Made by a program: the position numbers and the translations under genes. A stretch of DNA of 64,000 nt from Fulvivirga marina (GTDB taxonomy: Bacteria; Bacteroidota; Bacteroidia; Cytophagales; Cyclobacteriaceae), in NCBI RefSeq assembly GCF_016775155.1, contig NZ_JAEUGD010000042.1:558001-622000 (forward strand), read 5' to 3'. Shown piece after piece: positions 1 to 13,313 of the stretch. How positions within the stretch are numbered: position 1 is the stretch's first letter; each line of letters opens with the position of its first letter. Below the pieces are notes generated by a model. That model saw nothing but the letters and a program-made list of their open reading frames with translations. It made no database searches and had not been told where the DNA came from.

Positions 1-709
1 CCAAAAGTGATGCCATATTTTTATCTACCTCCTGATAAAAAGATAAAAGCAGCACTATGTTCTCTAAAATTATTTTTTGCTCGCCAATTTTTTCTTGCAA
101 CTCTTTGTTAGAAGGATCTTTTGCGGAGACCTGACAAGTAATGTGCATTGCCTCTAGCCAACCTCCAGTGAGTAATAGTACACTTAAATTGGCTCGGTTT
201 TGCTCTTGTAGATAGTGGTTAATACTGTTGAAGTTTTGTGTTGTGATCAGTAATAGTGAATCAAGGTTTTTGCTGTTGGTAGCCAAACGGCCTATGGTTT
301 CGATATCGAAGAACTGACCTATGCTCAAACCATCAGCAAGTTCCTTGATGGCTGTCATATAATCCAGACCATCCTGATTTTGCTCATAGATGTTAGTATA
401 GCCAAGGTCTGTACCATATATACCTAAGTTTAATGCTTTGCGGTAATTACTGTTGTACTTTGATATATTATCAGGGGAGTTTAGCAGGTTTTTGTCATAT
501 TTCGTGCCTGATTCCCGTAGCAATACCGATATCTCTAATGGAGATGGGATTTGCTGAATGATGCTGCTGATTACTTCTTCTGAGATGGCAGGGCCTTCAA
601 TTTTCGCTGAATCCAAGCTCTCCAGAAACGCTTTTTCATCTGGTTTTTTACTTGAATCACAAGCAGATATTATTAAAATCAGCAATAAACTGAATGATAA
701 AATCCTCAT
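1..709 (-). CDS. Lipoprotein of unknown function, C-terminus beyond the window
   Basis: An open minus-strand frame of 236 codons runs from an ATG at 709 to the left edge, so the C-terminus is missing. The N-terminus has a hydrophobic core followed by LIISAC, a lipobox with the acylated Cys at residue 17, so the mature protein should be membrane-anchored in the envelope. The rest is helical and polar with no catalytic motif I recognise. It lies 79 bases downstream of the ABC transporter fusion on the same strand and may be the last gene of that signalling block. The lipoprotein call is good; the function is unknown. Confidence 0.75.
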   Translation of the reverse strand, partial: MRILSFSLLLILIISACDSSKKPDEKAFLESLDSAKIEGPAISEEVISSIIQQIPSPLEISVLLRESGTKYDKNLLNSPDNISKYNSNYRKALNLGIYGTDLGYTNIYEQNQDGLDYMTAIKELADGLSIGQFFDIETIGRLATNSKNLDSLLLITTQNFNSINHYLQEQNRANLSVLLLTGGWLEAMHITCQVSAKDPSNKELQEKIGEQKIILENIVLLLSFYQEVDKNMASLL

Positions 710-788: not shown

Positions 789-3700
789 TTATACTTCTCC
801 CTTACGCCCAAATTTAATTTTGCCAAAAGCTGAGATACCTTTTTTGAGCAATTCAAAGTAGAGTGTAAAATAGAGAATTAATGTCATTATCCAAATTACT
901 ATAATATTAAAATAATATGTATCCACATAACTTCCTAATAAGTACTTCTTTGGCGCAAAAAAATGCGTTCTGTAATCCAGTAAGTGTTCAGGTTTATCAG
1001 GGTCATTGTATATAGGGTTGATTTGCTGTATCAATTTCCCCTGATATTCTATGATCCTGTCCTTTTCATTGATGTTCATTACAAGATCAGCCAGACTTTC
1101 ATTGTGGTACTTGTTTTTGTACTCATTGAGGTTGTAGTCGTACTCTTTGTTATTCTCAAAGGAGTATACCATATTGTCTCGTATGGCAACAGTTTTGTTA
1201 TAAACATCTTGGTAATGTGCTTTAAACTTACCAAAGTACTGCTCCAGTTGAGTAGCTTTTTCTTTGTTGAAATTGCCAATGGTCAGGTCATTAATAACAT
1301 CAATATTTTCGAGCCCTTCTCTATAAGGTTCGTCGGATAGCTCCTGACTTATGATAGATAAATCTTTGCCAACAATAGCTTTTATTGAATCATTGTCACT
1401 TTCGAAGTGGTCAGCAGCGTAACTCAGCCGTTTTTTTAAGTCTTCTACGATATAGGATGACTTAAAGTCAGCATCTGCTTCTATCTTTTCCAATCCATAA
1501 TACGGCTTTTCATATGAGTTATGCTTAAATTGTTCAACGGCTAAAGCCTCATATGCCCAACGTGAAGCCATAAAGTCGGCAACAATAGGTACTTTACCTT
1601 TTGTACTAATGATGTTATTTAGTTTGTCGAAACTAAATAAAAGTCCGCTTAGGATCATCTGTGGGATTAGCAACAGCGGTATCAGTACATATACGGTGAC
1701 GGCAGAGTTGAATGCACTGGAAATGTTTAGTCCTAGAACATTAGCCATGCAGGAAACCGTAAACAGTACAAGCCAGTATGAAATTGTCATTTCCCTGATC
1801 TCAAGTATCAGATTGCCAATAAGTACGAATGTGAGGGTTTGTATTGCTGAAAGAAGGAACAGAATAAATAATTTGGACATTAAATAGCTGTTCCAGCTGA
1901 GGTTAAGAAATGACTCTCTTTTTAGTATTTTTCGATCCCGTATTATTTCTTCGGCACTTACCGTTAGTCCCATAAACAGGGCTACAATTATGCTCATAAG
2001 CATAAAAGCAGGTATATTCTCGTTGAATCTGAAAAGGTACTCATCTCCATATGGTGAGCTTTTATACCTTATGATAAATGCCAAGATAAACGCTAATAGG
2101 GGAGCTTCCAGTAAGTTAATAAGCAGATACTGCTTATTACTTATTTTACTTAGCATGTCACGGGTGGTGAATATTACCGCCTGCTTTATTTTATTTGGAA
2201 TATCTAGAGAATGTGGAGGTTCTTCATTTACATCTTCAACTTTTTCAATACTGAAGTTTTTCTTGAAGCTTTCATTCCACTGCTGAGGGTTGATTTTCCT
2301 TTTATTCGTAAGCTGACCATATTCATCAACTACCTTAGCCTCAATAATATTAAAAATCTGTTCAGGGTTAACATTTCCGCACGTTTCGCACTGTCCCCTT
2401 TGACTATCAACTTGGTTGGTTGCCTTTTTGAAATATGTAATTGCTTCAACAGGGTTTCCATAGAATACAGGATACCCTCCGGTGTCCATCATATACATTT
2501 TGTCAAACATTTTATAAATGTCTGATGATGGCTGGTGGATAACCACAAATATTAGTTTTCCTTTTAGGGAAAGCTCTTTCAGAAGGTCAATAACATTTTC
2601 AGAATCTCGTGATGAAAGGCCGGATGTAGGCTCATCAACAAAGAGTATTGCTGGCTCTCGTATCAGTTCAAGTGCAATATTCAACCTTTTTCGTTGACCA
2701 CCGCTAATAGTTTTGTCCAGAACACTACCTACTTTAAGGTCTTTGCGCTGGTCAAGTCCCAGGCTTTCAAGTACGTCAAGAACTCTTTTACTTAACTCTT
2801 CTTCAGAATATGTGGCAAAGCACAGCTTCGCATTGTAGTAGAGGTTTTCATATACTGTTAGTTCTTCTATCAGGAGGTCATCCTGCGAAACATACCCAAT
2901 TACGCCATGTATACTTTCCTCTTCTTCATGGATATCGAATCCATTGATCTTAATACTTCCTTTTGAAGGTTTTTCGATACCTGCCAGCACATTGAGGAGG
3001 GTAGTTTTTCCAGCTCCACTGGCACCCATTATGCCGATGAGTTTACCTGGTCCCTCAGCTATTCTAACGTCTCTAAGGCCAAGGGCACCATTCGGAAAGC
3101 GAAACTCTTCAATTTCAGCATTGAATGAGAGTTTTGTAGTGTTAAATTCTTCGTTAAAAAGCGAAATTAGGTCGCTGTAGTATAATGCAGCCCCTTGTGG
3201 GGTTTTAATTGTACTTCCGTGGGAGAATAGGTAGACTCTGTTTTTAAGCATGATAAAACCGTTGAGTACGATTTCATCTTTGCCTAGATATTTGGTGAAA
3301 TACATGTCAACACTCTTAACTCTTAGAAAGATGAGGTCGCCATGTATTTCAGATTGAAGGTGTTTAGCTTCACTATCACCGCCATTGTTTTCATTGCTAT
3401 TAATGAGCAACAGATCGTTGAAGTTAAGCTCTTTTATATCTTGTTGAATAACAAAGCTTTCGATTAGCTTGTATTCATCTTTAACTATATTAAATACGGT
3501 ACTAATTGTATCTATGATCTCCATTCTTTGAGGGGTGAAGTTCTGGTCAGAACCTACCAACTCAAGAATTTTGATGAGTACAACAACCTTTTGTTTTTGA
3601 GTAAGGGTTTTATTGATCTTCTTGCAAAGGCCGAGGGTTTTTACCGAATCTCTTACCGATGTAAGTTTACGCTTTTTTGTTGTTTTTTCTTCTCCGGAAT

Positions 3701-3893
3701 CATCATCTTTAGAATCTTGGTTATATCCGGAAAATTTATCATAAAGCTCCAGGTATTCTTTAACAGAATCCTGATCTAACTCCTGCTTAAAGAAACTGAT
3801 AACAAACTGTCTTTCTTTCTCAGTAACGCCACCATCTTGCTTAGTAATAATAGCAAATAACTGTGTCAGTGCTTTAAGTATTTCCTCACTCAT
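789..3893 (-). CDS. TerB-like / ABCG-type ABC transporter fusion (ATPase plus permease)
   Basis: This 1034-residue half-transporter carries ATPase and permease in one chain, as in ABCG/White-type exporters. Residues 1-155 look like a TerB/DjlA-type helical domain, and residues about 180-245 form a beta-rich linker. The ATPase has Walker A GASGAGKTT (about 290-298), Q-loop YVSQDD (334), signature ISGGQRKR (396) and Walker B LFVDEPTSGLS (417). A CETCGN cysteine pair lies near 507. The ABC2-type membrane part starts near 600 and holds the characteristic EEIIRDRKILKRE loop. About 190 residues lie between the last helices, probably outside the membrane. The substrate is unknown. It lies 51 bases after the SiaC-like gene, which suggests control by that switch (inference). 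Confidence 0.88.
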   Translation of the reverse strand: MSEEILKALTQLFAIITKQDGGVTEKERQFVISFFKQELDQDSVKEYLELYDKFSGYNQDSKDDDSGEEKTTKKRKLTSVRDSVKTLGLCKKINKTLTQKQKVVVLIKILELVGSDQNFTPQRMEIIDTISTVFNIVKDEYKLIESFVIQQDIKELNFNDLLLINSNENNGGDSEAKHLQSEIHGDLIFLRVKSVDMYFTKYLGKDEIVLNGFIMLKNRVYLFSHGSTIKTPQGAALYYSDLISLFNEEFNTTKLSFNAEIEEFRFPNGALGLRDVRIAEGPGKLIGIMGASGAGKTTLLNVLAGIEKPSKGSIKINGFDIHEEEESIHGVIGYVSQDDLLIEELTVYENLYYNAKLCFATYSEEELSKRVLDVLESLGLDQRKDLKVGSVLDKTISGGQRKRLNIALELIREPAILFVDEPTSGLSSRDSENVIDLLKELSLKGKLIFVVIHQPSSDIYKMFDKMYMMDTGGYPVFYGNPVEAITYFKKATNQVDSQRGQCETCGNVNPEQIFNIIEAKVVDEYGQLTNKRKINPQQWNESFKKNFSIEKVEDVNEEPPHSLDIPNKIKQAVIFTTRDMLSKISNKQYLLINLLEAPLLAFILAFIIRYKSSPYGDEYLFRFNENIPAFMLMSIIVALFMGLTVSAEEIIRDRKILKRESFLNLSWNSYLMSKLFILFLLSAIQTLTFVLIGNLILEIREMTISYWLVLFTVSCMANVLGLNISSAFNSAVTVYVLIPLLLIPQMILSGLLFSFDKLNNIISTKGKVPIVADFMASRWAYEALAVEQFKHNSYEKPYYGLEKIEADADFKSSYIVEDLKKRLSYAADHFESDNDSIKAIVGKDLSIISQELSDEPYREGLENIDVINDLTIGNFNKEKATQLEQYFGKFKAHYQDVYNKTVAIRDNMVYSFENNKEYDYNLNEYKNKYHNESLADLVMNINEKDRIIEYQGKLIQQINPIYNDPDKPEHLLDYRTHFFAPKKYLLGSYVDTYYFNIIVIWIMTLILYFTLYFELLKKGISAFGKIKFGRKGEV

Positions 3894-3944: not shown

Positions 3945-4307
3945 TTAATAAGTTTTGAATTCGAATGGAATTTCAACTAGTTCAGAAAATTCCTCTCCGG
4001 CTTCTTCCATATCCTCGTCATCTTCATGAAAGTACCATAGAATATTTACACCATCAATGTCTTCAAGAGCTGATAGAACATCTAATATTAGCTTTGAAGA
4101 AGCAGTGTTGAAGTATTCTAGTTTGAACATGAAGTCCGTATTTCCATTTGGGGCTTTAGAGTACTCTTCAATCCAGTCGAGAACTGGCTGATAAAATTCA
4201 GCAGAATCTTCAGGAAGAGATCTTCCGGAGATTTCAAAGATGCCATTTCCTTTATCCAGTATGATTTTCGGGGTATCTTCAGTGCCTTCTAAATTAAGTA
4301 TTTCCAT
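3945..4307 (-). CDS. siaC: SiaC-like regulatory phosphoprotein (DUF1987 family)
   Basis: The 120-residue acidic protein matches the SiaC/DUF1987 family, single-domain proteins that resemble anti-sigma-factor antagonists. The central motif EYFNTASSK places a threonine at residue 68, the number of the phosphorylated Thr in Pseudomonas aeruginosa SiaC (established for that protein, inferred here). In Pseudomonas, SiaB phosphorylates SiaC, SiaA removes the phosphate, and unphosphorylated SiaC activates the diguanylate cyclase SiaD. The kinase and phosphatase homologues lie directly upstream here, but no cyclase is present. The gene is 37 bases from siaB. The symbol is by family only. Confidence 0.85.
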   Translation of the reverse strand: MEILNLEGTEDTPKIILDKGNGIFEISGRSLPEDSAEFYQPVLDWIEEYSKAPNGNTDFMFKLEYFNTASSKLILDVLSALEDIDGVNILWYFHEDDEDMEEAGEEFSELVEIPFEFKTY

Positions 4308-4344
4308 TTTATGTTAATTTAAAAAATAGTGATTCAGTATGATT

Positions 4345-4875
4345 TTAAACTCTAGCAATTGAGGATTTTAGGCAAAAGAACGAATCTCCGTCTTCCATGT
4401 CAAGAAACTCATATTCTAGTTTTCTTCCAGATTTTCTGGCCATATCTACGAAGCCAAGGCCAGCTCCTCCTTTATCAGAGATTTCAGTGTTCTTAATTAT
4501 ATCTTTATATAAGGTCTTTAAGCCGTCTTTGTCAAGGCTATTGATCTGATCTAGTTTGCTTTTTAACCCATCTACTTTATCACGTTTGATCGGGTTACCA
4601 GACACAATGATGTATTCGTTATCCTGCTTACCTATCATGAATACAGCAGAATGATTGTGTTCAACGTCATCAGCATGCTTAACTATGTTTTGAAGGCATT
4701 CTACCATTACGTTAAAAACCTTACGCTTAATACTGGACTCCTCACCAGATGAATCCATATTTCTTTCAGCCATGGCTAATACTGATTTTGTAATTTCCTG
4801 GGTAAATTCACCTTCATAAACCAAGATGAGGTTTTGCTCCAACATGGTTTGGTGTAAGTCGAAAATATACTTCAT
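4345..4875 (-). CDS. siaB: SiaB-like protein kinase (GHKL/HATPase fold)
   Basis: The 176-residue soluble protein has an ATP-binding GHKL fold without a dimerisation or His domain. The N-box is VECLQNIVKHA (about 58-68, with Glu59 and Asn63) and the G-rich lid is DKGGAGLGFVDMA (134-146). This is the layout of SiaB, the kinase that phosphorylates SiaC on threonine. It sits between the PP2C phosphatase and the SiaC homologue, as expected for a partner switch. Anti-sigma kinases such as RsbW share the fold, but no sigma factor gene is nearby. The start ATG at 4875 has no in-frame competitor close by. Confidence 0.82.
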   Translation of the reverse strand: MKYIFDLHQTMLEQNLILVYEGEFTQEITKSVLAMAERNMDSSGEESSIKRKVFNVMVECLQNIVKHADDVEHNHSAVFMIGKQDNEYIIVSGNPIKRDKVDGLKSKLDQINSLDKDGLKTLYKDIIKNTEISDKGGAGLGFVDMARKSGRKLEYEFLDMEDGDSFFCLKSSIARV

Positions 4876-4982
4876 AAGTCGTTATATGTTTATTCTTATT
4901 GCCGATTAATTGTTTGTGTCATTTTTCAGTCAAGCCTGTGACCATAATTTCCCCCCAAAATAGTACTTTTAATCTATAAGTT

Positions 4983-7900
4983 CTAAAATTTTATACCGAT
5001 TAATAGCACATCGTCCGTTTGCTTTTCATCCGCCTTCCAATCTTCCCACTCTCTGTCAAAGTCCTTAAAGGCCTCTTTCATTGGCTTGTGATGTATTTTG
5101 GTAACTAATTCTCTTAAACGTTTAGGGCCAAACTTTCTGTTGTTAGGACCTCCAAACTGATCAGGGAATCCGTCAGAGCAGAAGTAAATAGAATCCCCTT
5201 TGGAAAGCGTCATTTGATAATTGGTGAAATTAGTCTGGTTCTTATAAATACCGCCACCAATAGCAAACTTGTTGCCTTTGATTTCCTCAAGCTCTCCTTG
5301 TTTTACGACATAAAGTGGACGGTGTGCACCTGCATATTCTACTTTTTGTGAATCGGTATTTATTTTACAAAGTGCTATATCCATACCGTCTTTGGTTTTT
5401 GAGTCGTCCTGATCTTGTCTCAAAGTGGTTGTCACTCCTTCATCCAGTTGGTCAAGAATGATTCCCGGATCGGATATTTTTCTACTGCGAACAATATCAT
5501 TTAATAGGAAGTAACCGATTAATGATAATAGAGCACCAGGTACACCATGACCGGTACAGTCAACGGCTGCCATATAAATATCATTGCCAACCTGCACATA
5601 CCATGGGAAGTCTCCACTTACCACATCTTTTGGCTTATATAGAATAAAAGAATCTGGTAAGACTTTATTGATTACAGCGGTGTTGGGCAAAATTGCATTT
5701 TGAATACGTTTGGCATAGTTAATACTGTCAGCAATTTTCTTATTCTTGTTTTGTATCTCCATCTCGATCATTTTGCGATCTGTAATGTCGTGAGATACAA
5801 CCAAAACAGACTCTAGATGATCGGCCTCATCATATTCAGGAATAGCGTTGACCTGCATCACACGATCCCCCATTTCAGAAGGGAAATCCATCTCTGTAGC
5901 AACCTTTGCGTTTGAAGCATTTACCTGTTCCACAATAGTAAGCCATGACTCCAGGATTTTTTCATTTAAGTCGGTTTCTCCTACTTTATGGTTGAGGTAA
6001 TCGATAGGTGTTTTACCAGTGTATTCTTCAATAACAGGGTTGATGTATGAGATCGTTTCGTTTTCAAGCCTGGTTATAAGGTCAGGCGAGTTTTCAGAAA
6101 GAGCCTGCATTTTACTTCTCATCCTTTGCTCTTGCTCGGCTCGTCTTCTTTCTGTAATATCGGTAGAGTTAACGATGAGACCATGAATTGCCGGGTTCGA
6201 CATGAAGTTGGTTCCCGTTGACTCCAACCAGATGTAATTACCTTCTTTAGTTAGATATTCGTACTGGATGGTTACCTGATCATCTGGGTTGGCCTTAAGC
6301 TCTTCAAACATATTTTTGAAAGCTTCAACAGCTTCAGGATGCACTTTATCAACATCGGCGGTACCCATCATTTCTTTTTGTGAGTAACCTAATATTGGTT
6401 CTACGGATGGACTTATGTACCTGATAGTTTCGTCTTCTTCGTAGATGGTGATTACCTCTGAAGCATTTTCAAGCAGTAACTGCATACGCTTTTGTGTGCG
6501 GTTTACTTCTTCGATTTGCTCTTCCAGTTTTACATTTGACTTTTGCAGCTCTTCCTGAGTTGCCTGCATTTCCTCCGCATTCTGTCTTAGGATCTCCTGC
6601 TTTTCCTGAAGCTCGGAACTCATGGCTTGAGATTCTTCAAGAAGTTTTCTGGTACGTTCGTTGACCTTAATGTTAAATACGGTTCTAGCCAGGATTAAGC
6701 TGAGCTCCTCTACAAACTTCACTTTTCCTTGATCAAACTTGCCAAAACCTGCAAATTCCAGAACACCGTATACTTTTTCATCTGTAATCAAAGGAACAAT
6801 GAGTATGCAACCAGGCCTTTGATCACCCAGAATACCGGAAGTAATGGTTACATAATCCTCAGGTATCTCTGTACGTAATACAGTATCCTTTTCTGCAGCA
6901 GCTTGACCAACAAGTCCTTCTGCAAATTTGAAGCTGACTTCAAGGTGTTTTTTGCGGTTGTAGGCATAGCTTGACATCATGGTCAGAACCATTTCGTCAA
7001 TTTCAGCTTCATCATTGATTACATAAAACGCGCCCTGTACTGCGCCAATTTTTTCTATAATATACTTGATAGTTTCGTCCCCCAACTGCTCCAGGTTATC
7101 ATGAGCTCGAAGGATTTCTCCTATTTCTGCAACACCTGTTACAATCCAGTTTCTTTGTTTATCCCTTTTTTCTGCTTCAATTAGATTATCACGCATGTTA
7201 ACTAAAGAAATACCCAAAGCATCTTCTTCACTGATAGGTTTGTAGTTTGCATCAAAGTTTCCTTCTCCAATCTGTTGGGCGAATTGTGCGGTGCCTTTTA
7301 AAGTTTGTACCAGATAATCCAGGCTAACGGCCATCATACCGATTTCATCATTTGATTTCTTTTCCACCTTTTCAGGGAGAACTCCATTGCCAACTAACTC
7401 CAGATTTTTCTTGAGATAGAGCAAAGGGTTTATAAGGTACCTTGAGAAAATCAGAGATAGCAAAGTAGCTAGTAGAACAATGATAAAGCCGATAATAAGG
7501 AAGTAGTAAAGTTGATTTTCTGATTCTGCAAATATTTCGCTGGTATTAATTTTTGCAACCAGCCCCCAATTGATGTTTGGTATATGCCTCCAGGCAGCTA
7601 CCACTTCATTTTCTTTATGATCCGTTCTTACACCATGACCAGAGCCACCTCTTGTCGCTTCCTGTACTGCTCTGCCTCTCTCGGCACCATCTTTCAAAGC
7701 TCCTACAGAAGTTAATGTGTCATTTCGTGATGTATGAAGAAAGTTAATTCTTCCGGCAAGTGTATCTATTCTTGCCAGTAATACTGAGCCTGTATGCAAA
7801 AGTCCGGTGGTATCCTGAATAATGGAGTACACCTCACTCATGTCAATTTCTATAAATAGCAGTGACTTACCGCTGGTGTGGTTAACAGGGGCGCCTGCAT

Positions 7901-8522
7901 ACATGTAGTATTTGCCATTTTCTTCATTCTTGGTGATGTTACTGAAGTAGATCTTTTGAGCAGACTGGCCTAACATGTGTCCATCTGCATCTTCCAGGTT
8001 AGAGCCCTTGCCTAATTTAGGATTGGTAGAGTAAGAAATTACGCCATTGGGCTCTGTAATATAAAGGTTTTCATAACCGTGGCTCTGTTTAACTTCATTA
8101 AGGAAGCCACTGACATCGTGATCGACTTTGGGTTCAGGTTCGAGAACTTCACCCGTATCAAAGCCTCCTGTATCGTCCATACCCATGCCAAAACCCATAG
8201 GATCTTCTTCAAATCCAATATCTGTAGCTGCCGAATCTGAATCAAAGGTAGGTTCCGGAGGAGCATTGAAAGAAGGTGAGGCTCCTTCTTTAATCGTTTT
8301 GGTCTCTTGTAGAAGTTTTAAGTTTGCTATAACATGGTCAAAATAAGCACCTATTTTGTCTGCACGGTTCTCGGCTATTACGCTTAAGCTTTTTTCATAT
8401 CGTGCTACAATGGTATCTGTTGTGAGCTTGTATGATAATAAACTAATAGCAGCAACAGCCAAAATGACTACTGTGGCTACAAGCGCCGTTATCTTTGTAC
8501 TGATCTTTAGATTTTTGAACAT
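4983..8522 (-). CDS. SiaA-like membrane sensor phosphatase (Cache-HAMP-GAF-PAS-PAS-PP2C/SpoIIE)
   Basis: This 1179-residue receptor is anchored by two helices (about 11-31 and 340-361) that flank a periplasmic Cache-type sensor. HAMP (362-415), GAF (470-620, with EGLVGQ and EIPEDYV), coiled coil (620-685), two PAS domains (690-800 and 805-920) and a C-terminal SpoIIE/PP2C phosphatase (950-1179) follow. The metal-binding motifs are VVSGDFPWY (near 970), VDCTGHG, SDGFPDQFGG and QTDDVLLIG. Pro replaces the more usual Tyr or Trp after SGDF. Residues about 84-133 are a low-complexity Gly/Asp/Pro/Met insertion in the sensor. Its likely substrate is the SiaC-like protein encoded two genes downstream (inference). 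It is much longer than Pseudomonas SiaA. Confidence 0.88.
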   Translation of the reverse strand: MFKNLKISTKITALVATVVILAVAAISLLSYKLTTDTIVARYEKSLSVIAENRADKIGAYFDHVIANLKLLQETKTIKEGASPSFNAPPEPTFDSDSAATDIGFEEDPMGFGMGMDDTGGFDTGEVLEPEPKVDHDVSGFLNEVKQSHGYENLYITEPNGVISYSTNPKLGKGSNLEDADGHMLGQSAQKIYFSNITKNEENGKYYMYAGAPVNHTSGKSLLFIEIDMSEVYSIIQDTTGLLHTGSVLLARIDTLAGRINFLHTSRNDTLTSVGALKDGAERGRAVQEATRGGSGHGVRTDHKENEVVAAWRHIPNINWGLVAKINTSEIFAESENQLYYFLIIGFIIVLLATLLSLIFSRYLINPLLYLKKNLELVGNGVLPEKVEKKSNDEIGMMAVSLDYLVQTLKGTAQFAQQIGEGNFDANYKPISEEDALGISLVNMRDNLIEAEKRDKQRNWIVTGVAEIGEILRAHDNLEQLGDETIKYIIEKIGAVQGAFYVINDEAEIDEMVLTMMSSYAYNRKKHLEVSFKFAEGLVGQAAAEKDTVLRTEIPEDYVTITSGILGDQRPGCILIVPLITDEKVYGVLEFAGFGKFDQGKVKFVEELSLILARTVFNIKVNERTRKLLEESQAMSSELQEKQEILRQNAEEMQATQEELQKSNVKLEEQIEEVNRTQKRMQLLLENASEVITIYEEDETIRYISPSVEPILGYSQKEMMGTADVDKVHPEAVEAFKNMFEELKANPDDQVTIQYEYLTKEGNYIWLESTGTNFMSNPAIHGLIVNSTDITERRRAEQEQRMRSKMQALSENSPDLITRLENETISYINPVIEEYTGKTPIDYLNHKVGETDLNEKILESWLTIVEQVNASNAKVATEMDFPSEMGDRVMQVNAIPEYDEADHLESVLVVSHDITDRKMIEMEIQNKNKKIADSINYAKRIQNAILPNTAVINKVLPDSFILYKPKDVVSGDFPWYVQVGNDIYMAAVDCTGHGVPGALLSLIGYFLLNDIVRSRKISDPGIILDQLDEGVTTTLRQDQDDSKTKDGMDIALCKINTDSQKVEYAGAHRPLYVVKQGELEEIKGNKFAIGGGIYKNQTNFTNYQMTLSKGDSIYFCSDGFPDQFGGPNNRKFGPKRLRELVTKIHHKPMKEAFKDFDREWEDWKADEKQTDDVLLIGIKF

Positions 8523-8570
8523 AAATTTTCAATATGTTTTTACGCCTCAATTTTTTCTTTTAGGGATACC

Positions 8571-9428
8571 TTATTCTCCCCCTTTTTTATTCAAATCACC
8601 CTCTTTAACCTCTTTGGTATCAGCGGTCTTTTTCGTGGTTTTAGCTGTACCAAACAGTTTCTGTGTCAATTGTTTGAAGGCTGCAGCCACCATTTCCGCA
8701 TCAGCTTTTCCCAGATTGGTAAAGGAAGCAATTTCTACCACGCCATATAGTGAGTCCCCGTTTTTCACAGGAACAACCAATAAATGGGTTGGTGTAGCGC
8801 TGCCCAAGCCGGAAACTATTTTTACATAGCCTTCTGGGATATCATCAATAATAAGTGTTTTTTCTTCAAGTGCTACCTGTCCCACAAGCCCTTCTCCATA
8901 TTCGAATTTAATCGTTTCAGACTCTCCAAGAATCAGGGCATATGATGCTTGCATTTCAACTATTCGCTTATCACCTTCTTTAGAGGTGGTGTAAAAAGCA
9001 CCAATTCCAGCGTCTAAATGCTTGCACAAATGTGTTAATATCTCTTTTGCCAGCTTATCTTTATCTGATTCACTGGCAATTATATCTTTTACAGCACTGA
9101 TGTCAAGAGTATGACTGTTTATGTTCTCCTCATCTTCTTTGCTTGATTGCTCGCTTGCTGATTTCTTCTTTTCAACATAGATAACTTCTGAGCTTTTCTT
9201 GTTGAGAGAGGTTGCCAGTGCAGCCATGCCTACAATCATGGTTATACCAACAACTACATATAGTTTCACGAATACGAAGCCTGTAGCTTTGAGGTCTCCT
9301 GCACTTAATACCTGACTACCATAGACCAGATCGTCAGGTAATTGGAATAGCTCATACGCTGTGAAAATCATACATGCTGAATATATAGCAATCAGAACAA
9401 TGCTTAATTTTCTATATTCGAACTTCAT
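8571..9428 (-). CDS. Membrane-anchored GAF-domain protein
   Basis: The 285-residue protein has two N-terminal membrane helices (about 8-25 and 52-72), a charged Lys/Ser/Glu-rich linker and one GAF domain (110-265). The GAF has GEGLVGQVALEEKT and DIPEGYVKIVSG, closely like the GAF domains of the phosphatase 48 bases downstream and the sensor at 10971-13313. There is no output domain, so it may bind a ligand or redox signal and act on its partners. The C-terminus is a Lys/Thr-rich tail. It is 6 bases from cheB and clearly in the same transcript. Its function is unassigned. Confidence 0.8.
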   Translation of the reverse strand: MKFEYRKLSIVLIAIYSACMIFTAYELFQLPDDLVYGSQVLSAGDLKATGFVFVKLYVVVGITMIVGMAALATSLNKKSSEVIYVEKKKSASEQSSKEDEENINSHTLDISAVKDIIASESDKDKLAKEILTHLCKHLDAGIGAFYTTSKEGDKRIVEMQASYALILGESETIKFEYGEGLVGQVALEEKTLIIDDIPEGYVKIVSGLGSATPTHLLVVPVKNGDSLYGVVEIASFTNLGKADAEMVAAAFKQLTQKLFGTAKTTKKTADTKEVKEGDLNKKGGE

Positions 9429-9434
9429 CCTAAT

Positions 9435-10034
9435 CTATTTATATTGTTTGTTTAATTCAGTAAAAAATTCTACTATTTCATCCACCTTCAATACATAATC
9501 AATGGCGGTGGCATTAATAGCAGCATTAGGCATTGTGTCTATCATGCATTCTTTAGGATCCTGAACAATGGTAAGGCCTCCTCTATCTTTGATATATTTC
9601 ATGCCTAAGCCTCCATCACGATTAGCACCAGATAGTAAGATGCCGATCAGCTTATCTCTATAAACATATGCGGCAGTGCCCAAAGTTAGGTCTATTGCTG
9701 GTCTGGAATTATTGATCATTTCTTCAGTAGAAAGACTAAAATAATGACCAAGCTCAACACACAAATGATAATTGGCAGGTGCGAGATAGACCTTGCCTTT
9801 TTTTATACCCTCTTTATCATACGGCTCAGTTACTTCCATTATACTTTTGATCGACAATGCTTCTACAAAACCATTTCTCACATGTTTGAGTCGATGCAAA
9901 CACATGATAATAGGCAAAGGAAAGTCTGGAGGTAAATGCGAAAGTATCTTTACAATTCCCTGAAAACTCCCCGCCGATCCGCCAATTACTACGGCTTTAT
10001 ATTTGTTATTTAATGTAAAACGGCTCATTCCCAT
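9435..10034 (-). CDS. cheB: CheB-type protein-glutamate methylesterase without receiver domain
   Basis: The 199-residue protein is only the catalytic CheB domain. It has the catalytic Ser in VIGGSAGS (about 18-22), the catalytic His in MCLHRLKH, and the catalytic Asp region LLSGANRDGGLGMKYI. Canonical CheB removes methyl groups from receptor glutamates and is switched on by an N-terminal receiver, which is absent here, so control must come another way. It lies 9 bases after cheR. No methyl-accepting chemotaxis receptor gene is in the window, so the substrate may be the coiled-coil sensors of this block (inference). Confidence 0.9.
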   Translation of the reverse strand: MGMSRFTLNNKYKAVVIGGSAGSFQGIVKILSHLPPDFPLPIIMCLHRLKHVRNGFVEALSIKSIMEVTEPYDKEGIKKGKVYLAPANYHLCVELGHYFSLSTEEMINNSRPAIDLTLGTAAYVYRDKLIGILLSGANRDGGLGMKYIKDRGGLTIVQDPKECMIDTMPNAAINATAIDYVLKVDEIVEFFTELNKQYK

Positions 10035-10043
10035 TCAGCTACC

Positions 10044-10862
10044 TCAGTCCTTAATTTTCTTATATACCTTTTCCTCGTTATTGACTACAATGAATTTACT
10101 GGCAATATCACACCAGATAAGTGATTCCTTGGAGCCAATCGCCAGGTACCCATATTTGAATAAGCTTTCATGGAATTTCTTTAGAACCTCATTTTGTAAT
10201 GTCTGATTAAAATAGATCATGACATTGCGGCATAAAACAAGGTCAAATTTGTTGAAAACCTCACCCTTAACGAGGTCATGTTTTCTATAAGATACATTTT
10301 CAACCAATGTTTTGTCCATCACAGCTTTTCCATTGGACTCCTTATAATACTTGCTTAGAGAAGAAGTACCTTGAAAGCGTATATAGTTCTTCTCATTAAG
10401 CTCCATGTTTTTCAGGTTGTATACACCTGCTTTTGCATTATCGAGTATGTTGGAGTCTAGGTCCGTTGCTATTAGCGATACATTGTCCAAGATGCCCATT
10501 TCACGTAGCATAATGGCCATTGAAAAGACTTCCTCACCAGATGAGCAGCCAGCATGCCATATCCTAATCTTTTGATGGTTAAGCATAATAGCTGGAATAA
10601 TGTCATCTCTTAAAACTCTCCAGAAGGGAGGGTCACGGAACATTTCAGTTACATTAACTGTAATTTCATTTAAGAAGTCTTCCATAAATGCAGGATCATA
10701 TAACTTCTTAATCAGTTCGTCAACATTGAGATTGTGGAGCTCGAGTATTCGAAGGATCCGCCTCTTAAATGATGACATGGCATAATTGGTAAAGTCATAG
10801 TTGTACTTGGTCTTCACCAACTCTGTTATTCTTTTTAAATCTGCAATGTCGATTTCCTTCAT
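10044..10862 (-). CDS. cheR: CheR-type protein-glutamate O-methyltransferase
   Basis: The 272-residue protein is a full CheR. The N-terminal helical domain includes FKRRILRILELHN, followed by EITVNVTEMFRDP (about 87-99). The SAM-binding motif is IWHAGCSSGEEVFSMAI (about 118-134), and the late motif is LVLCRNVMIYF. It should transfer methyl groups from S-adenosylmethionine to glutamates on receptor coiled coils. It is followed closely by cheB and preceded by the HAMP-GAF-PAS sensor gene, 108 bases away. No cheA, cheW or MCP gene is present, so this pair probably serves the local non-canonical signalling block. Confidence 0.93.
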   Translation of the reverse strand: MKEIDIADLKRITELVKTKYNYDFTNYAMSSFKRRILRILELHNLNVDELIKKLYDPAFMEDFLNEITVNVTEMFRDPPFWRVLRDDIIPAIMLNHQKIRIWHAGCSSGEEVFSMAIMLREMGILDNVSLIATDLDSNILDNAKAGVYNLKNMELNEKNYIRFQGTSSLSKYYKESNGKAVMDKTLVENVSYRKHDLVKGEVFNKFDLVLCRNVMIYFNQTLQNEVLKKFHESLFKYGYLAIGSKESLIWCDIASKFIVVNNEEKVYKKIKD

Positions 10863-10970
10863 TATCTATATGCCAGCTATTCTATGAAAATGTAAATTGT
10901 GTAATTTAATAATTTTATCTTATAAAACTTAAAAACTATCAGGTCTAAAACTTTTCTGCGAAAAAAATAT

Positions 10971-13313
10971 TTATATCCATATGATAAAGTTTTGGTTAAG
11001 CGCTGCATCGTGATAAACCTCAGCCTTAACATTTATTTTATCAGGTTTAGCTTTAAAAGTAATTTCCTTTTTGGAAATAGTTTCTTCAGTCAACAAATCT
11101 TCATCAACCAATTGGTTAATGCTCTGGCCTGTAATATCTGAGTCTGCAATATCGAGGACCTGCTGAGCAGAACGATTTATATGGGTGACAGTGCCTTCAT
11201 TGTTGAAGATAACAATTTTAACCACATTATCCAGCAAGTTTAGAGTAGCTTCTGATGACTTTAGCTTTTGGTTGAGTTGTTCTTGGGTAATTTCTAATTC
11301 TTCGAGATTTTGTCTTAGTTCCTCTTCTACCTCTTTCATTTGTTCCCACTCAGCACTGTCTGTTTTTTCCGATTCCTGGGATTCAACGGATAAAATAAGC
11401 TCTATTACTTTATAGTATTCGCCATGATTGTTTTTCACAGGAGTATAGGTAGTATTTACCAAAACTTCTTCACCATTTTTCTTTCGCTTGGTGTAGTTTC
11501 CTGAGTGACTTATTCCATTATGCAGGTCTCTCCAAAGATCGGAAGTATCGCCAGAACTGATGGTGTGAAAAGAGATACCCTGAATGTTATCAAGCAGTTC
11601 ATAGCCGAGTAGCTTAACATAATTATTATTTGCAGTTAAGAGTACCCCATCCATATTGTACTCAGCAGAAGAGAGGCTGTTGTTGATAGCTGTGAGCTGT
11701 GCTGTCATTTCTACTTCTTTCCTCGACATTTCTTCTTGTGTTGCTGAGAGCTCTTCCATGTTTTGGCGCATTTCCTCTTCCTGCGCCTGCATTTGCTCAG
11801 TTAGTGCCTGAGATTCTTCTAACAGAGTTTTGGTTTGCTGGTTGTTTTTCGTCCCGGCTATTGTAGAAGCAATGCTTTCTGCCAGCTTCTCAACAAACTC
11901 TATCTGGTAGTCTTTATATTCATTAAATGAGGCAAGCTCGATTACTCCATATATATCCTCATTGACCATTAATGGAACCAGAAGGATGGCTTTTGGGTTG
12001 GCACCACCCAAGCCTGAAGTTATGGCTATGTAGTCATGAGGTATTTCAAGTAGATAGGTAGTTTGCCTCTCCAGGTAAGTTTGCCCTACCAGACCTTCCC
12101 CAGCTCTATATGAGCGTTTATCATATTTTTTTGTATTAAAGGCATACAAGGATATGAGTTCCAGTATTTTGTTTTCTTCATCCTGATCATTTACAATAAA
12201 AATCCCTCCCTGGTTTGATTTGGTATAGGTTACCAGATTAGAGATAATAATATCACTCAATGCGTGTACATCATCATTGGAGGAACGTAAAATATCTACG
12301 AATTTAGCTAAACCCTCTGTTGACCATTTTCTTTCACGTTCTTCCTCCTCTACACGTTTCATTTGATCACGCATGGTAAGTAACGCTCCTTCAAGGCCTC
12401 TGTTTCTTAGGTCTTCACCTTCAGTACCTTTAAACTCGACGTCCAACTTGCCATTTTCAATAGCGTTTACAAAAGCAGTTGCATTCTGAAGGTTTTCGCT
12501 AATCTTATTAATTGATTTGGCCACTTTCCCTATTTCATTGTTGAGGGTATAGGAAGATCTTTTTGAAAGATCCCCATTGCTAACGTGAGATGCTATTAAA
12601 TGAAGATCTTTCATCGGGACATTGATTTTTTTTCGGGTCCAGATCAATATACTAATAATAGCACCAATAAATACAAGCAGGAAAATAAGCGAAGTATAGG
12701 TAAGTGTGTTGCTTTGTGAGTCAAATGCTCTTGTTTTGGCAGATAAAACTCTTCTCGATGCTTTGGATAGCTCGGAGGAGTAGCTTTGTAAATAGTTGTT
12801 TGCTCTTTCCAGATTTGGGTTTCGAATATTCAAAACTTTCTGGGTTGTCTCTGTAGTAATTGTATTTAGAGAGTCGTATAAAGGTACTTCTTTAGACTCT
12901 TGTACTACTGTATCAATTGTCAACGGCTCGAACAACAGCTTGTCTATGTGCTTTTTTGATTTTAACCACTGCTTGGTGAGGTTGGCGTACATTCCACCAT
13001 TTACCTTAAGCGTGTCATTCTCTTCCTGGTGCTCTGAATCCAGTGCCAGTAAAATCTCCTCGAAACGTTTTGCTGTTGTTTCAAGATTACCCCGTGCTCT
13101 GGTGTTCCCGTCAGCGAAGAGCTGAGCATTTGTCGCAATTTGCGGAGGGAGACTATGAAGTTCCTTGGCTGCTTCGATTTCTTTAGCAGCATTTGTGATT
13201 CTATTCTGAAGATAGGAAATCACAAAAAAGTTAATAATGGCCAGAATCACTAAGCCTAAAAATATCGCTATGGACTGACTTCGAAGTGATAAGTTTTGTA
13301 AGTTCAAATTCAT
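10971..13313 (-). CDS. HAMP-GAF-PAS membrane sensor without kinase or methyl-accepting domain
   Basis: The 780-residue sensor has TM1 (about 14-36), a helical periplasmic domain (37-203), TM2 (205-227), HAMP (228-280), GAF (340-490, with GEGLVGQ and EIPHDYIAITSG), coiled coil (495-545), PAS (545-645), a second coiled coil (655-690) and a final PAS (690-780). It ends there, with no histidine kinase, cyclase or phosphatase domain. The coiled coils repeat E/Q-rich heptads such as EEMRQNMEELSATQEE, reminiscent of receptor methylation helices. It is the first gene of the minus-strand block and is followed by cheR, which suggests it is a methylated signal input (inference). Confidence 0.82.
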   Translation of the reverse strand: MNLNLQNLSLRSQSIAIFLGLVILAIINFFVISYLQNRITNAAKEIEAAKELHSLPPQIATNAQLFADGNTRARGNLETTAKRFEEILLALDSEHQEENDTLKVNGGMYANLTKQWLKSKKHIDKLLFEPLTIDTVVQESKEVPLYDSLNTITTETTQKVLNIRNPNLERANNYLQSYSSELSKASRRVLSAKTRAFDSQSNTLTYTSLIFLLVFIGAIISILIWTRKKINVPMKDLHLIASHVSNGDLSKRSSYTLNNEIGKVAKSINKISENLQNATAFVNAIENGKLDVEFKGTEGEDLRNRGLEGALLTMRDQMKRVEEEERERKWSTEGLAKFVDILRSSNDDVHALSDIIISNLVTYTKSNQGGIFIVNDQDEENKILELISLYAFNTKKYDKRSYRAGEGLVGQTYLERQTTYLLEIPHDYIAITSGLGGANPKAILLVPLMVNEDIYGVIELASFNEYKDYQIEFVEKLAESIASTIAGTKNNQQTKTLLEESQALTEQMQAQEEEMRQNMEELSATQEEMSRKEVEMTAQLTAINNSLSSAEYNMDGVLLTANNNYVKLLGYELLDNIQGISFHTISSGDTSDLWRDLHNGISHSGNYTKRKKNGEEVLVNTTYTPVKNNHGEYYKVIELILSVESQESEKTDSAEWEQMKEVEEELRQNLEELEITQEQLNQKLKSSEATLNLLDNVVKIVIFNNEGTVTHINRSAQQVLDIADSDITGQSINQLVDEDLLTEETISKKEITFKAKPDKINVKAEVYHDAALNQNFIIWI

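Follow-up and report, generated by a model that had tools for sequence, protein, structure and literature searches.

According to two studies of Pseudomonas, the kinase SiaB phosphorylates and the phosphatase SiaA dephosphorylates residue T68 of SiaC (PMC7647112), and phosphorylation of T68 blocks the binding of SiaC to SiaD (PMC8457831). The latter study describes DUF1987 proteins as widespread and suggests that they modulate adjacent proteins (PMC8457831). In the literature that we found, a c-di-GMP cyclase is the only SiaC target to have been worked out. Among the titles listed by our search, which largely left subscription journals and preprints outside its coverage, none linked SiaC to a transporter.

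Here we describe a minus-strand block of ten genes in Fulvivirga marina that looks like a single operon (Table 1). The block runs past one edge of the window, the 64,000-nucleotide stretch of DNA that was analysed. On sequence grounds, we consider it fairly likely that a SiaABC-type partner switch, which in Pseudomonas governs a biofilm signal, drives a membrane transporter in this operon and not a diguanylate cyclase. The genes follow the order sensor, CheR, CheB, membrane GAF protein, SiaA-like PP2C, SiaB, SiaC, TerB-ABCG transporter, lipoprotein and small secreted protein. All gene positions, strands and domains named in an earlier note on this DNA were borne out by coordinates and Pfam. 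The block is longer than stated there, extending on the same strand to the TerB-ABC, lipoprotein and small secreted protein genes.

Table 1 Genes of the block, in operon order; positions refer to the window unless contig coordinates (C37) are given
Feature	Position	Strand	Basis
HAMP-GAF-PAS sensor, no output domain matched	10971..13313	(-)	Pfam HAMP, GAF_2, PAS_9
CheR protein-glutamate methyltransferase	10044..10862	(-)	Pfam CheR 149 bits, CheR_N 32.8 bits
Receiver-less CheB methylesterase	9435..10034	(-)	Pfam CheB_methylest only, 165 bits
Small GAF protein	8571..9428	(-)	Pfam GAF_2 and GAF
SiaA-like sensor phosphatase	4983..8522	(-)	Pfam SpoIIE (SpoIIE-type PP2C, 69.6 bits), HAMP, GAF_2, PAS
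SiaB-family protein kinase	4345..4875	(-)	PF19788/DUF6272 150.6 bits (cut-off 26.6); NCBIfam 'SiaB family protein kinase' NF038262 183.5 bits (cut-off 85)
SiaC-family phosphoprotein, predicted phosphosite T68	3945..4307	(-)	PF09345/DUF1987 135 bits (Pfam cut-off 24.5)
TerB-middle domain-ABCG half transporter, proposed SiaC target	789..3893	(-)	Pfam TerB, ABC_tran, ABC2_membrane
Helical lipoprotein, putative transporter partner	1..709; whole gene C37:557807-558709 (window -193 to 709)	(-)	300 aa ORF
Small secreted protein	C37:557357-557788, beyond window edge	(-)	ORF

Gene order was compared among named loci, which are the 80 with the best SiaC match out of 413 and hence skewed to close relatives, with all open reading frames kept and best matches only. 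Upstream sequence spans 7 kb or more in 71 of the named loci, and in 70 of these the CheR-CheB-GAF-SiaA-SiaB genes lie ahead of SiaC in the same order. The transporter follows SiaC in 75/76, and the lipoprotein and the small secreted protein are each encoded downstream in 72/73; one locus (L183) is the sole exception to every count. The earlier note had named a lack of co-conservation in relatives as one refuter; what we found is this shared order, and on synteny we rejected a chance neighbourhood of the block genes. Two distant relatives keep SiaB-SiaC-ABC-lipoprotein. No PP2C, CheR or CheB was seen in the stretch examined in one (L079), nor in the 3 kb of upstream sequence covered in the other (L081).

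At ortholog cut-offs of ≥62% identity for SiaC and ≥55% for the ABC protein, set after the gap between values had been seen, 38 of 58 genomes (own included) contain both proteins, 3 the transporter only, 0 SiaC only and 17 neither. In one transporter-only genome (G001) the transporter lies at a contig end. In the other two (G020 and G028), which are sisters (support 0.992) within the linked clade (support 0.999), the transporter and lipoprotein persist without the switch block, so the switch is dispensable there. No SiaC match was found in three genomes that contain a family transporter (G019, G020 and G048). As many supports in the SiaC tree are low, we claim no count of origins.

The switch proteins retain their functional positions in aligned named relatives (the window protein is included in each count). 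Aligned to P. aeruginosa SiaC (PDB 6kko, also 6kkp and 7e6g), SiaC has Thr at position 68, the Pseudomonas phosphosite, in 78/81 proteins and Ser in 3/81, with Y65 and N67 each in 81/81. The SiaD-contacting S69, D79 and R103 of the Pseudomonas protein are not kept. At the start of helix 3, an acidic run takes the place of the basic residues; this run is partly present in paralogous SiaC and is therefore no partner signature. SiaB retains N-box residues E59, N63 and H67 in 80/80 relatives. The phosphatase has the order dCache-like-HAMP-GAF-coiled coil-PAS-PAS-PP2C, the dCache match being sub-threshold (24.5 bits against a cut-off of 45). Its five PP2C aspartates are invariant (76/76), and its coiled coil shows the highest conservation among the nine regions compared.

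We found no GGDEF match in the F. marina genome, whereas the control search was positive in 8 of 14 genomes. Among the 58 genomes searched, own included, GGDEF was present in 2 and not found in 56. A scan of 3089 open reading frames from the loci for GG[DE][ED]F gave four matches (two DnaK-like and two others), none cyclase-like by eye. A SiaD, nearby or elsewhere, was not found by either the GGDEF searches or the motif scan. These results agree with the earlier description of a SiaABC-type switch without SiaD, and the second refuter named there, a SiaD-type cyclase beside the block in relatives, was not seen. The further claim that the switch had 'lost' SiaD is firmer than the data allow, because with 56/58 genomes lacking a GGDEF match a different output is the simpler account.

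The gene that follows SiaC encodes ABC_tran ahead of ABC2_membrane in one chain (Pfam) with an ABCG fold, which identifies the product as an ABCG transporter. In its AlphaFold model, the core resembles ABCG2 and ABCG5/8 (best E 1.3e-23; TM 0.73 by target); the other Foldseek matches listed are ABCG1, ABCG16 and ABCG25 and a pair of full-size pumps from fungi. A structure model of the lipoprotein from F. imtechensis (pLDDT 80) matched no fold in the PDB at E ≤ 0.001, and the only Pfam match of the lipoprotein was a sub-threshold LntA_helical.

Several lines of evidence tie SiaC to this transporter, as the earlier note had suggested: co-occurrence, linkage, TerB constraint and gene fusions. In a sample of the class, SiaC is present in 101/101 genomes with the transporter and in 22/97 of the others. 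Distances were computed between 129 transporter entries and the best 150 SiaC matches, using one genome size of 3.5 Mb. SiaC lies within 5 kb of at least 36 of the 129 entries, with 0.61 expected; the limit of 150 SiaC matches makes the count a lower bound. Of these, 25 are convergent and 11 have SiaC upstream on the same strand. Outside the window's own family, the count is at least 34 of 120.

As judged by sequence identity, transporters linked to SiaC have a more tightly constrained TerB domain than their unlinked paralogues, whose surrounding sequence, as far as covered, showed no SiaC. At an ATPase-domain identity of 0.70-0.75, linked pairs reach 0.62 identity over TerB, against 0.38 for pairs of unlinked paralogues. 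The extracellular domain in the same bin gives 0.32 and 0.36, and any added constraint on the middle domain is small (0.42 and 0.38). Natural loss of the block is uninformative in this respect, because TerB identity to linked proteins in G020 (0.58) and G028 (0.60), which lost the block, equals that in G053 and G054 (0.59 each), which keep an unlinked SiaC.

Two species that belong to the same genus have natural TerB-middle-SiaC fusions, 62% identical to each other, with siaC on one side and the transporter gene on the other. A fusion-free model of the transporter N-terminus finds both (E 3.5e-19 and 3e-10), and at each of the two loci there is, in addition, a divergent CheR-CheB-GAF-PP2C-SiaB block. 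One further genome (G308) has two weaker candidates, with E values of 1.9e-6 and 0.49 under the same model; the candidacy of the latter comes just from its position between siaC and a transporter gene. From these sequence comparisons, SiaC probably acts on the neighbouring TerB-ABC transporter, and the best reading is that dephospho-SiaC docks on the TerB end.

Co-conservation and fusions are compatible with either direction of signalling, and the transporter might itself be the sensor, as in flux-sensing ABC transporters. TerB would then read flux or lipoprotein state and hold or release SiaC, or alter the access of SiaB and SiaA, while the real output of SiaC lay elsewhere; the four SiaC proteins of the genome make other targets possible. 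We consider this direction unlikely, given that the phosphatase has sensor domains of its own and that, in the layouts read, no gene besides those for the lipoprotein and small protein is as regular beside the block. It is also conceivable, if improbable, that SiaC and the transporter merely share a physiology, with SiaC acting on an unlinked protein and never touching the transporter. The survival of the transporter without the block in G020 and G028 fits such an arrangement, as do the 93 of 129 class entries with no SiaC within 5 kb among the best 150 matches, but neither a fusion of the transporter's N-terminal module to SiaC nor a TerB-specific constraint would be expected from it.

CheR and CheB belong to the module. 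R212 and N213 of CheR are present in 73/73 aligned named relatives, and S20, H47 and D140 of CheB (the Ser-His-Asp positions) in 74/74, window proteins included. No CheA, CheW or MCP domain had a Pfam match in the block, and CheB is without a receiver. The GAF protein has a hydrophobic N-terminus, judged by eye to be a membrane anchor. The earlier note had joined the receiver-free sensor to the switch; it proved a variable member, directly upstream of CheR in 31/69 named loci, and we rejected it as a defining part.

In the version given in that note, CheR and CheB act on this sensor, whose methylation then signals to the phosphatase. The sensor does adjoin CheR in the window, and its coil contains EE-LSAT glutamates, as judged by eye. 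Yet CheR stands without an adjacent sensor in 38/69 loci while CheR and CheB stay in 70/71, so it is improbable that the sensor serves as the methylation substrate in all loci, and we regard this version as doubtful. An EExxAT motif in the SiaA coil is common among loci; it is broken in three (L074, L077 and L152) that all keep CheR/CheB and kept in one (L071) where neither was seen in the stretch examined. The genome also encodes four MCPs and has six other CheB matches, and the block enzymes could be ordinary chemotaxis proteins that lie here by chance and serve those receptors. We consider this very improbable: four of the six other CheB matches already lie within 3 kb of an MCP, and the receiver-less CheB of the block stays with SiaA in 70/71 named loci. 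Moreover, another order again pairs a 189-residue CheB with a Sia switch and transporter (L218 and L252); the same combination occurs in L193, at a contig end.

In the mechanism that we favour, the switch acts on the transporter. As known for the Pseudomonas proteins and suggested here by the conserved residues, SiaB would phosphorylate SiaC at T68, and the SiaA-like sensor PP2C would strip the phosphate. Dephospho-SiaC may then bind the ABCG-type half transporter at its N-terminal TerB domain, in the cytosol, and raise or lower transporter activity. Linkage suggests that the lipoprotein and small secreted protein encoded downstream are working partners of the transporter. In the weakest step, CheR and receiver-less CheB would methylate and demethylate an ever-present partner, most likely the phosphatase coiled coil or the GAF protein, and so adjust how strongly the switch responds (its gain), with no need of CheA. 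Only tentatively do we extend this to a module of the whole class Bacteroidia, in which a Ser/Thr switch would gate an ABC transporter through unphosphorylated SiaC on TerB, with CheR/CheB methylating the phosphatase for CheA-free adaptation.

A transporter would be a specific second class of SiaC target, in bacteria without a detected diguanylate cyclase and with TerB as the proposed docking domain. If true, a kinase-phosphatase pair that adapts in the manner of chemotaxis would switch the transporter, and TerB would gain a concrete role as the receptor for a regulatory protein. The natural TerB-SiaC fusions are ready-made test proteins.

The locus shares with SiaABCD of P. aeruginosa a PP2C sensor phosphatase, a SiaB-family kinase and a SiaC with identically numbered Y65, N67 and T68. 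It differs in that the genome has no GGDEF match, the partner-facing S69, D79 and R103 are changed, the next gene encodes an ABCG transporter, and CheR, CheB and the GAF protein are added. The NCBIfam equivalog scores for SiaC, SiaB and SiaA are likewise under cut-off (84.4 of 150, 84.4 of 225 and 220.9 of 700 bits). CheR and CheB resemble the methyltransferase and methylesterase of chemotaxis adaptation in their conserved active-site positions, but here CheB lacks a receiver and no CheA, CheW or MCP domain accompanies them in the block. With ABCG2 and ABCG5/8 the transporter shares its predicted core, whereas its model adds an N-terminal TerB and a beta-rich middle domain (approximately residues 1-260) as well as an extended helical stretch around 776-939, and it has a putative lipoprotein partner. 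In the Mla complex, the small STAS-like protein MlaB binds the Mla ATPase and regulates the ABC transporter from the cytosolic side, to our knowledge without a kinase-phosphatase pair. Cytosolic regulation of an ABC transporter would be common to both systems, with the regulator here being a phospho-switch.

The block is real and conserved, and probably an operon. Each gene that the earlier note had described, from the HAMP-GAF-PAS sensor through CheR, CheB, the GAF protein and the SiaA-like PP2C phosphatase to SiaB and SiaC, was found on the minus strand where it had been placed and with the Pfam domains ascribed to it. The block extends past SiaC, with three further genes. Intergenic gaps calculated from the coordinates measure 6 to 108 bases, so all these genes are likely to form a single operon. 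The kinase scores above the NCBIfam cut-off for 'SiaB family protein kinase'; SiaA, SiaB and SiaC score under the NCBIfam cut-offs for the Pseudomonas equivalogs.

The order CheR-CheB-GAF-SiaA-SiaB-SiaC-ABC-lipoprotein recurs in 40 stretches of relatives picked by SiaC match, paralogue loci included, and in a set of the best 80 of 413 loci by the same match, which is biased to close relatives. A recount on these best 80, with all ORFs retained, revealed the five genes upstream of SiaC, all in order, in 70 of the 71 loci with at least 7 kb upstream, CheR and CheB being kept in the same proportion (70/71). Downstream, the ABC transporter follows in 75/76 loci, and the lipoprotein and the small protein in 72/73 each; the sole exception to the gene order is locus L183. 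Key active-site positions are invariant in the alignment of this set. Two relatives' loci, L079 and L081, retain SiaB-SiaC-ABC-lipoprotein, with no PP2C, CheR or CheB seen in the stretch (only 3 kb upstream in L081), which points to SiaC and the transporter as the inner core.

Downstream genes of the block, and further Sia and CheB matches in the own genome and in relatives
Feature	Location	Length	Description
TerB-ABC transporter	after SiaC	1034 residues	
Lipoprotein	spans window edge	300 residues	
Small secreted protein	after lipoprotein		final gene
Second Sia module	L156:15838-19253		shortly 3' of operon; PP2C gene facing SiaC, tandem two-domain SiaB kinase; SiaC has Ser at position of window T68
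Second Sia module	L179:15876-19255		as in L156, including Ser
SiaC-domain protein (genome G308)	L253:8160-9329		C-terminal SiaC domain; N-terminus weakly resembles transporter TerB-middle region (E 1.9e-6); neighbours CheB and CheR genes; family's transporter none seen in stretch
SiaC-domain protein (genome G202)	L255:7720-8622	300 residues	N-terminal SiaC domain, then putative Mrr-type restriction endonuclease domain, by eye
PP2C-SiaB-SiaC set, own genome	L013:9405-12984 (contig C37, ~443 kb)		neighbour resembles TonB-dependent receptor gene, by eye
CheB match, own genome	C61:124783-125037		interrupted by two stop codons; perhaps decayed copy

A link between SiaC and the transporter is well supported by genome comparison. 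Among 198 genomes of the class (transporter called at E ≤ 1e-250), whose relatedness precludes giving the count a probability, SiaC is present in 101/101 with the transporter versus 22/97 without. Across 58 genomes comprising relatives and the own genome (transporter E ≤ 1e-100, any SiaC), 44 carry both, 3 the transporter only, 2 SiaC only and 9 neither. Within the class sample, SiaC lies ≤5 kb from at least 36 of 129 transporter rows, against 0.61 expected, a lower bound because it draws on the best 150 SiaC matches; from the same matches, 25 of the linked SiaC genes are convergent with the transporter and 11 precede it in the same orientation, and at least 34 of 120 rows outside the window's family show this proximity. 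As counter-evidence, SiaC and the transporter lie apart in most class rows among the matches listed, and genomes G020 and G028 retain transporter and lipoprotein without the block.

The link can be sharpened into a specific, testable claim, that SiaC would dock on the transporter's TerB domain. Two relatives' loci, L218 (G171) and L252 (G098), encode natural fusions of 374–377 residues, mutually 62% identical, in which the transporter's TerB and middle region precede SiaC; both lie between siaC and the transporter gene. A transporter-only model detects them at 3e-10 and 3.5e-19, and they are the only full-length matches among those listed (61 genomes of their family); G308 holds two further, weaker candidates. 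For pairs at ATPase-domain identity 0.70–0.75, which are non-independent and include only 16 paralogues, mean TerB identity is 0.62 (459 linked pairs) versus 0.38 (53 unlinked-paralogue pairs), while the middle (0.42 versus 0.38), membrane (0.67 versus 0.64) and extracellular (0.32 versus 0.36) domains were compared likewise.

The methylation step of the switch is hypothetical. Among the best 80 of 413 loci, the sensor lies immediately upstream of CheR in 31/69 and is absent there in over half, which makes either the GAF protein or the phosphatase a more plausible candidate substrate. The phosphatase is best conserved in its coiled coil (mean major-residue frequency 0.85), which frequently has EExxAT, similar to the enteric receptor methylation consensus. 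This motif is a lead only: it is broken in L074, L077 and L152, which have CheR/CheB, and intact in L071, where neither was seen in the stretch. In another taxonomic order, L218 and L252 likewise carry CheR and CheB, here with GAF, PP2C and again SiaB, divergent from SiaB-SiaC-fusion-ABC. A chemotaxis-type cluster in G028 (L082) terminates in PP2C-SiaB-SiaC, a second encounter of the Sia switch with chemotaxis adaptation genes; these three genes, CheR and a receiver-bearing CheB were identified by match, while inspection by eye adds a kinase gene and genes resembling MCP, CheD and CheX.

The own genome contains four SiaC matches, four MCPs, three TerB-ABC transporters and seven matches to CheB, of which one is interrupted by two stops. 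GGDEF gave no match there, and none in 56 of the 58 genomes searched, the own genome among them. Two MCP-CheR-CheB clusters on contigs C61 and C63 (L016, L020) showed no CheA by eye in the part of the stretch inspected; methylation enzymes with no CheA nearby may therefore not be unique to the block.

In the transporter's AlphaFold model (mean pLDDT 79), the TerB domain is helical and the middle region rich in beta structure, and the core is of the ABCG type, with matches to ABCG2 and ABCG5/8. The lipoprotein model is largely helical (mean pLDDT 80), and nothing in the PDB matched it at E ≤ 0.001.

Where Pseudomonas SiaC opens helix 3 with basic residues, the window SiaC has an acidic run conserved across its clade; the run is partly present in paralogues and so is alone no pointer to a partner. 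Position 69 is Ala in 78 of 81 aligned SiaC sequences, versus S69 in Pseudomonas, whereas Y65, N67 and T68 of the P. aeruginosa structures are all matched. According to PMC8457831, T68 there goes in between the SiaD stalk helices, with Y65, N67 and S69 contacting nearby, and binding is abolished by T68 phosphorylation or by the N67A/T68A/S69A mutant; PMC7647112 describes the T68 state as set by SiaB and SiaA.
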